This document shows, in pieces, positions 17,202 through 19,284 of a DNA stretch of 64,000 nucleotides (the first letter of the stretch is position 1; every line of letters starts with the position of its first letter). The DNA comes from Candidatus Limnocylindrales bacterium. GTDB taxonomy: Bacteria > Desulfobacterota > Binatia > UBA1149 > CAITLU01. Made by a program: the position numbers and the translations under genes. Below the pieces are notes generated by a model that searched no databases, had not been told where the DNA came from, and saw only the letters and a list, made by a program, of their open reading frames with translations. Location: NCBI GenBank assembly GCA_035571835.1, contig DATNBU010000045.1, positions 1 to 64,000 on the forward strand. Reading direction: 5' to 3'.

Positions 17202-17936
17202 TCAGAGCCGGAAACGTTCGCCGAGGTATATCTCGCGCGCCTGCCGGCTCGAAGCGATCGACTCGGGGCTGCCCTCCTCGAGGATCCGCCCTTCGTTGAG
17301 GATGTACGCCCTGTCGCAGATGCCAAGGGTCTCGCGGACGTTGTGGTCGGTGATCAGCACGCCGATTCCGCGTTCCCGGAGCTGCGCAATGATGCTTTGG
17401 ATGTCGATAACCGCAATCGGGTCCACGCCGGCGAACGGCTCGTCGAGCAGCATGAACTTGGGCGAAATGACGAGCGCCCGGGCGATTTCGACGCGCCGCC
17501 TCTCGCCGCCCGACAGCGCCGCGCCCATTGTCTTGCGGACGTGCGTTACGCCGAGCTCCTCGAGCAGAGTCTCGAGGCGTTCGCGCCGCTCGGCTTCGTC
17601 GATATCGAGAGTTTCCAGGATTGCGAGAAGATTGTCCTCGACGCTGAGGCGCCGGAAGACCGAGGGTTCCTGCGGAAGGTATCCGATGCCGGCGCGCGCC
17701 CGTTCGTACATCGCAAGGCCGGAGATCGCTCGGTCTCCGAGCATTACCGAGCCTTCGTCGGCCTTCTCGAAACCGACGACGATGTGGAACGTGGTGGTCT
17801 TGCCGGCTCCGTTCGGACCGAGCAGGCCGACGACCTCGCCCTGCTGAATTTCGAGCGACAGGTGGTCGACGACCGTACGGGCACCGTAGCGCTTGACGAT
17901 GTCGCGTGCCGACAGACGAATGGGGGCGGTCGTCAC
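17202..17936 (-). CDS. lptB: LPS export ABC transporter ATP-binding protein
   Basis: A 244-residue ABC ATPase powering LPS transport with LptFG. Walker A is [11 protein letters not shown], the Q-loop region is [17 protein letters not shown] (LptB-typical), the signature is [15 protein letters not shown], Walker B is [16 protein letters not shown], and the switch His is in [10 protein letters not shown]. Start GTG 17936 overlaps the lptA stop (GTGA). Neighbouring lptC, lptA and rpoN confirm the assignment. Confidence 0.96.
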
Positions 17937-18700
17937 TTTTTGGCAGGTCCCTTCTTGTCGACCGCGTCCGGTCCCTTCTTGTCGAGCGCGTCGGGCATGA
18001 AGACCGCCTTGATGCGGCCGCCCGCGGCCGGCGCGGTCTCGGAGCCGGCAGTGGCCGTGCCGGAGGCTGGCGTCGCCGCACCTCCGAGAACCACCGCCCG
18101 CTTTTCGTTCAGATAGACGACGACCTTCTCGCCGGCAACCGAGTTCGGCCCCGAGCCGAGCCGGGCGTTCTGCGAAAGCGTGATCGTCCCGCCGGTCGGA
18201 TCGTACTCGGCGACCTCGCCGCGCGCTGATTCGTCGCCGCGCGTGACTTCGACGTTGCCGCGCGCCGTGATCTTTTTCAGGCTTCGCTTGCCTTCGGGCT
18301 CGAACGAAACGTCGAGCGACTGCGCGCGGATCTTCGCGCCGGCGTGGTCGACCGTCACGTTGCCCTGGTAGCGGAGCAGGCCCTCGCCGTAGAGGAACTC
18401 GAGGCGGTCGGCCGTGATGTTGATCGGCGACGGCACGTCGGCCAGCTCGAGATTCTTCGCAATGCCGGCCACCGAGCTCAGCACATCATTCGTCTTCCGC
18501 GCCGTATCCTCCGCCCCCGCAGAACCCACCCCAAGAAAAATCAGCAGAATTAAAAAGGGGACAGGTACATTTATGCAACTGCGCGGAAACGCAGGGGGCG
18601 TCGAAAAATGCGGGTTCAGCTGTGCTCGCAGATCCGTGGCGGCATTCGTGCGGCGCGCGAAAAACCACGACTTTTTTAAATGTACCTGTCCCCTTTTCAC
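17933..18700 (-). CDS. lptA: LPS transport periplasmic protein LptA with mobile-element-derived N-terminus
   Basis: A 255-residue protein as read. The OstA/LptA core begins near [20 protein letters not shown] and includes [37 protein letters not shown] and [12 protein letters not shown] Lys/Gly/Pro-rich C-terminal tail follows. The only in-frame start is GTG 18700, which overlaps the lptC stop (GTGA). Codons 2 to about 49 are encoded by a 145-bp inverted-repeat element (18553-18697); the hydrophobic signal core [14 protein letters not shown] begins immediately after it. The signal peptide is thus chimeric with an unusually long, mostly uncharged leader. The ORF stays open across the insertion. 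Confidence 0.85.
18553..18697. mobile_element. 145-bp MITE/REP-like element with perfect 21-bp terminal inverted repeats, inserted at the lptA start
   Basis: The left end begins AAAAGGGGACAGGTACATTT (18553-18572, plus A) and the right end (18677-18697) is its exact reverse complement. The interior (~103 bp) has no transposase. GGGGACAGGTACATTT-type termini are widespread in genomes with REP-associated tyrosine transposases, so a non-autonomous element is likely; that link is from general knowledge. It begins one base past the GTG start of lptA. Confidence 0.8.
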
Positions 18701-19284
18701 GACGGGGTCTCCGCGTGCGGGCGCAGGGTCATGCTTACGCCGGTGCCGATCACGACGCTGCGGTTTAGCATGTCCACGGTCATGTCTGTACCGGTCAGGT
18801 CGAGCTCGGCGGCCGAGACGCGCGCCACCCCATGCGCGTTGATGTGGCTCGACGCCTTGTCGTACGTGAGGTTGTCGGTCATCAGGCGCAGCCGGCCGAG
18901 CTCGAAGAGGACCTCGCCGCTGACTTCGACCGACTGGACGTCGGTGCCGTCGAGAAAAAGCCGTCCCCTCGTGGCGGAGACTTCGCCGACGCGCTCGCCG
19001 CCTTCGTAGAACACCACCTTCGGCGCGACGATCTCGATCGCCTTGTCGTTCTTGAAGTAGCTCGCCTCGCTGGCGGAAACCTCGAGCACCTTGCGGCCTT
19101 CGCGCGTGATCACGCGATGGAAGTTGCGGATGCGCTGCAGCAGCTCGGGAAGAGCCTGCGACGCGAGGAACGACGTGCTGACGAGCTCCGAGACGCTCGC
19201 CCGGCGCGTGAGCGAAAGGCCGAGCCCGGCCAGCGCCACGATGAGCACTGCCCCGAGCAGAAAGCGCCAGCCGCGTCGGCTCAC
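18697..19284 (-). CDS. lptC: LPS export protein LptC
   Basis: A 195-residue, single-pass inner-membrane protein. The membrane anchor is at residues 7-25 (FLLGAVLIVALAGLGLSL). The periplasmic part shows the LptC pattern: SEASYFKNDKAIEIVAPKVV, GEVSATRGRLFLDGTDVQSV, TDNLTYDKASSHINAHGVA and TGTDMTVDM. It passes LPS from LptB2FG to LptA. It starts with GTG seven bases after kdsD, and its stop overlaps the lptA start. The kdsC phosphatase gene that often sits between kdsD and lptC is missing here. Confidence 0.9.
   Translation of the reverse strand: MSRRGWRFLLGAVLIVALAGLGLSLTRRASVSELVSTSFLASQALPELLQRIRNFHRVITREGRKVLEVSASEASYFKNDKAIEIVAPKVVFYEGGERVGEVSATRGRLFLDGTDVQSVEVSGEVLFELGRLRLMTDNLTYDKASSHINAHGVARVSAAELDLTGTDMTVDMLNRSVVIGTGVSMTLRPHAETPS

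Follow-up and report, generated by a model that had tools for sequence, protein, structure and literature searches.

The closest systems that we know from the literature are short dispersed repeats, some of which are tied to transposase genes. The accessible text of PMC3733652 describes RAYT-like genes that are flanked by inverted repeats sharing the motif GGGGWSAS, some of which also have dispersed copies. In the two genomes that are diagrammed there, the GTAG and CGTC repeats lie mostly between convergent genes, at most 20 bp from both gene ends. In the same text, the termini of GTAG repeats can provide stop codons, and copies are found within ORFs and at N-termini. It also cautions that repeats annotated as N-terminal are in many cases probably non-coding, with translation starting downstream; N-terminal cases in Rickettsia are described as expressed. 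PMC10969869, in the part available to us, reviews the Rickettsia palindromic elements that have been incorporated in-frame into proteins. Going by the accessible portions, PMC4853749 concerns a different MITE and PMC6006769 describes other tags (GT[AG]G and CnGA). A literature search for GTACCTGTCCCC, from the repeat family described below, returned only an unrelated match, and the titles found by combining MITE with N-terminal, start codon or fusion held nothing to the point. So, stop-adjacent repeats and in-frame repeats are already published, and the lptA gene described here adds another example. What is particular to it is that a stop-adjacent repeat lies on an overlapping start codon, in the sole LptA gene found in the genome.

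We analyzed a stretch of 64,000 nucleotides (the window), whose minus strand encodes lptC (18697..19284; PF06835), lptA (17933..18700; PF03968) and an ABC ATPase (17202..17936; PF00005) that overlaps the end of lptA. We call the ATPase lptB-like from the gene order. At the junction of lptC and lptA, and upstream of the ATPase gene, is an inverted-pair element of 145 bp (18553..18697, minus strand). As originally predicted, its arms (18553-18573 and 18677-18697) are perfect inverted repeats, with 21 nt each and 100% complementarity. The TGA stop codon of lptC (18699-18697) overlaps the GTG start codon of lptA (18700-18698), forming GTGA, whose final base (18697) is where the element begins. This outermost base of the element doubles as the A of the lptC stop codon. 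The element therefore directly adjoins the GTG codon, instead of starting one base after it, as had been stated. The lptA reading frame does cross the element without a stop, as had also been noticed: the element supplies codons 2-49 plus one base, the first of codon 50, the native sequence then resumes, and the hydrophobic core of the protein runs from residue 49. This open frame is weak evidence of anything beyond chance. Four of the six frames of the lptA element are open, as are 46 of 126 frames summed over the 21 paired elements of the genome (see below), and we rejected an argument for selection from the open frame alone, because so many frames of the lptA element are open.

The original prediction proposed counting copies of the element across the genome, and the lptA element does belong to a dispersed family. 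Searching for GGGGACAGGTACATTT with up to 2 mismatches gave 99 ends (45 forward and 54 reverse), and the reversed control gave 0. All of these were counted, whether exact (52), with one mismatch (28) or with two (19), and every one of the 99 was found again in the fetched stretches plus the window. These ends are not independent, as they occupy 74 loci, namely the lptA element and 73 others. Within the window, a 16-base end motif with up to 3 mismatches occurs twice, versus 0.06 times expected. There are 21 pairs of ends that face one another (GGGG...CCCC) at distances of up to 300 bp; the opposite order was seen 0 times, and 4 neighboring ends have like orientation. The other 57 ends are partnerless at up to 2 mismatches, and some of these show degenerate partners by eye.

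We considered that the family might be a uniform MITE with one conserved core, and rejected this: only the ends recur, and the core of the lptA copy occurs once. Using the inner 67 bases of the lptA element as the query, BLAST against the genome found the element itself plus two matches at chance level, each spanning about 20 bases (E = 0.09 and 0.17; 22 of 22 candidate matches were scored). With the whole element, the genome matches cover stretches at its two ends (40 of 112 candidates scored). Compared to a MITE, the element has inverted ends, a single-copy core, and no parent among the PF01797 genes. The LptA of the congener (G001) is only 67% identical and there is no empty site at base resolution, so a target duplication cannot be read. 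A contig scan for a closer empty site, in a collection that may omit the genomes nearest to that of the window, yielded a single relative, a Deltaproteobacteria groundwater MAG, and no such site was found. The description of the element as MITE-like was thus right in that this is a mobile-type repeat with inverted ends, but its ends occur both singly and in pairs, and its core is unique. To judge from its sequence, the family looks like REP/TIR-type repeats instead. A search of Rfam gave four matches, all far under the gathering scores.

The lptA family works like the GGGGWSAS TIR repeats of TIRYT or RAYT-like genes (PMC3733652, as far as its accessible text describes them), although it is not a proven member. 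The GGGGACAG of the 52 exact ends fits the motif; single and dimeric copies occur in both (here, the partnerless ends and the inverted pairs); and the host has a RAYT-like gene that is bracketed by inverted GGGGACAG repeats. But these bracketing repeats belong to a sister family, GGGGACAGACACTGATTT, while the lptA family, GGGGACAGGTAC, flanks no transposase in the loci that we read (see below). So it is the sister family that has the flanking feature. As in the REP and REPIN systems described in the same part of that source, the lptA family consists of dispersed short repeats, often in inverted pairs and near the 3' ends of genes, which occasionally supply stop codons or coding residues. Unlike them, it has no GT[AG]G tag at its ends (neither the consensus of the 99 ends over 60 bases nor the composition of the 16 flanking bases showed one), and where they have a short tagged hairpin, its conserved part is an arm of about 17 bases at the terminus. 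The Rickettsia palindromic elements, in the available portions of PMC10969869 and PMC3733652, resemble the lptA case in their in-frame incorporation, with some at N-termini and reported to be expressed. They differ in encoding a peptide that is conserved and in being located inside many genes, whereas the lptA family is found mainly at the edges of genes and its peptide varies with the frame.

The genome contains one Y1 transposase gene (C33:33788-34126; PF01797 at 49.1 bits, over the cutoff). Its protein scores 60.2 bits with NF047646, under the cutoff of 80. This RAYT-like gene sits between inverted copies of GGGGACAGACACTGATTT (G000:C33:33630-34647, locus L031). The sister repeat has 248 copies in the genome at up to 2 mismatches, and none in the window at up to 3 mismatches. 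At two other sites (G000:C29:38635-38793 and G000:C13:134759-135022), sister-family repeats are nested or in tandem between the ends of GGGGACAGGTAC-type pairs. We read 30 RAYT loci, the genome's own and 29 from relatives (many further matches exist in the relatives), and none of these 30 has a tyrosine transposase flanked by GGGGACAGGTAC. Inverted GGGACAG motifs, which are those of the sister family, bracket only the genome's own locus among the 30. At another locus (L100), a single GGGGACAG lies about 1.1 kb to one side, with no bracketing pair. Hence, the REP-type transposase with matching ends that had been suggested did not turn up in these 30 loci. Mobilization by a tyrosine transposase would fit these repeats, and the lptA family might be either moved by the sister enzyme or the orphan of a lost one.

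The family has a narrow distribution. Among 395 genomes drawn from the phylum, the exact end was found in its own genome only (the reversed control had one match, in G132). Among a set of 58 genomes of relatives, ends with up to 1 mismatch were found 80 times in its own genome, 9 times in G003 and once in G030, with none in the others, including the congener. From this distribution, the family would seem to have recently expanded or arrived in the host lineage. Of the 9 related ends in G003, a genome from the same taxonomic family (loci L178-L186), four are arranged as two tight inverted pairs whose motif starts are about 30 bp apart.

LptA has a match in 55 of the 58 genomes, and LptC in all 7 of the genomes from the same taxonomic family that we searched. 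We read the region around the lptA start in 13 loci, including the genome's own. The overlap of lptC and lptA is GTGA in the congener and ATGA in G002 and G006. In G005, a GTGA is available at the junction, where the gene caller chose a later start; in G003, lptA starts 12 bp past the stop codon; and our reading of the junction in G004 is uncertain. None of the six other genomes from the same taxonomic family shows the leader. The original prediction would have been in doubt if distant LptA proteins carried the same leader, and across the 13 loci, the element is absent from the relatives' junctions and no distant LptA has this leader.

Why would a repeat insert at a start codon? Across the family, a stop codon is found at -2 to 5 bp outward for 38 of 99 ends (35 of 74 loci), and the lptC stop codon is one of these 38. 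For intergenic sites that were matched for A-runs, the corresponding count was 26 of 681; these sites came solely from the window and the stretches fetched around the ends, with about 150 bp masked per end. Across all intergenic base-orientations, 1160 of 57444 have a stop codon at 0 to 5 bp. The stop-adjacent proportion is 24 of 52 for exact ends, 12 of 28 for ends with one mismatch, and 2 of 19 for ends with two. Of the remaining ends, 12 are within 11 bp of a stop codon and 19 precede a called start by at most 40 bp. The bias towards gene edges is not absolute, as 16 of the 99 ends lie upstream of a called start at a distance of 60 bp or more, while 6 are inside called genes. The stop codons beside the ends are TAA (18), TGA (15), TAG (3) or overlapping (2), and some of them may take an A from the element; in all closed called genes, the counts are TGA 208, TAG 69 and TAA 58. 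An A-ending stop codon suits the A-rich end of the element. The genes were called by a codon-usage script that was trained on the window (58 genes, 90% coding), and the stop positions depend on this caller. For lptA, it picked the GTG at 18529, which we overruled (see below), so the end at 18557 was scored as being 27 bp from a start.

The family also changes the ends of other proteins. Five of the six intragenic ends are at the 3' end of the gene, and one, with two mismatches, is internal. Five other called genes gain C-terminal residues from the family, with tails such as KRGQVHLKK..., NGDRYI and KMGTGTIS. We compared one of these extensions to relatives, namely the longest tail, in a gene on contig C18: the congener's protein aligns to residues 1-406 of 430 and that of G005 to residues 3-405, which is up to the repeat, and the gene has no match in the other four genomes from the same taxonomic family. 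A two-mismatch end at G000:C33:113808 falls within a called gene (around residue 46 of 338) and is a possible case of internal in-frame absorption.

We propose that a REP/TIR repeat inserted at the lptC stop codon and lptA start codon and now codes for the leader of the LptA precursor. We give this a probability of about 0.72. LptA has the LptA/LptD_N domain intact (PF03968 at 54.5 bits, over the cutoff; TIGR03002 at 54.4 bits, under its cutoff of 71.7), its gene lies between lptC and the gene for the lptB-like ATPase, and no second LptA match turned up in the genome. Translation would start at the GTG at 18700, which keeps the overlap with the lptC stop codon and is preceded at 8 nt by a Shine-Dalgarno-like GGAG (18709..18712, minus strand, read by eye) within the end of lptC. 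(By eye, purine tracts akin to this GGAG are also present in G001 and G006.) The precursor that starts there would have 48 residues, with a net charge of +7, ahead of the hydrophobic core. The leader probably adds just a long cleavable n-region, and cleavage after AGA would leave a mature LptA that is free of element residues. So the original claim that LptA carries a transposon-derived leader holds in that the repeat forms the present 5' coding end of lptA, but the mature protein need not retain any of it. The LptA of G005, read from its GTG, likewise has a long charged stretch (25 residues), so the LptA proteins of this taxonomic family may tolerate long n-regions.

The best-surviving alternative is that LptA is translated from a downstream start, with the element, lying between lptC and lptA, serving as an untranslated spacer or as an attenuator hairpin. 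The published caution that many N-terminal repeats are probably non-coding (PMC3733652, in its accessible text) would fit this, as would the strong hairpin in the element. However, in going from 18700 down to 18529, the only in-frame ATG, GTG or TTG codons are the GTG codons at those two positions (otherwise there are CTG, ATT and ATA). And a start at 18529 loses the hydrophobic core: the best hydropathy over 11 residues is 3.02 with the start at 18700 and 0.04 with the start at 18529. Together with the lptC overlap and the GGAG, this makes a downstream start unlikely.

The hairpin right after the GTG has a predicted energy of -72.4 kcal/mol (181 nt folded; z = -5.64; 0 of 200 shuffles were as good). 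It would hinder free initiation, so translation of LptA is likely to be coupled to the termination of lptC. It is conceivable, but we think quite improbable, that the repeat was retained for such a function: the hairpin would tie LptA synthesis to the completion of LptC, the 48-residue n-region would alter targeting, and a selfish repeat would tune the operon for LPS export. Slightly more doubtful still is that lptA has been silenced or crippled by the hairpin at its start, with transcription possibly ending ahead of lptA and lptB, and that LptA is dispensable or has been replaced. The stable hairpin is followed by five T, as this would have it, but the LptA domain is intact, the genome has no other LptA match, and a strict terminator scan, which allows only short loops, found nothing (nor did a promoter scan). 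Finally, an assembly artifact at the inverted repeat is very improbable even for a draft genome in 46 contigs, as the element is just 145 bp within a 255-kb contig, its core occurs once, both flanks run into intact genes, and the family occupies 73 further loci.

Returning to our proposal, the element would be a non-autonomous REP/TIR repeat with two facing GGGGACAGGTACATTT-type ends that inserted at the overlap of the lptC stop codon and the lptA start codon. Its spread was most likely mediated in trans by a Y1 HUH tyrosine transposase, of the RAYT/TIRYT type. The placement of the family at gene edges is probably due to a compact genome, to selection against intragenic insertions, and to the fit of the A-rich ends to A-ending stop codons. 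Such a site would usually be harmless. Because the family sits on stop codons and the lptC stop codon lies within the lptA start, here the insertion would have fallen within lptA. The GTG, and the GGAG in lptC, would have been retained, with the frame open and the native hydrophobic core next. The first product would then most likely be an LptA precursor whose positively charged n-region is cut off by signal peptidase.

More broadly, where a stop codon and a start codon overlap, an insertion downstream of a gene that would normally be harmless becomes a change in a protein. Such a coding change may be tolerated where it is a removable signal peptide that is hit. And the family as a whole offers a case in which repeats next to stop codons can be counted in a compact genome.
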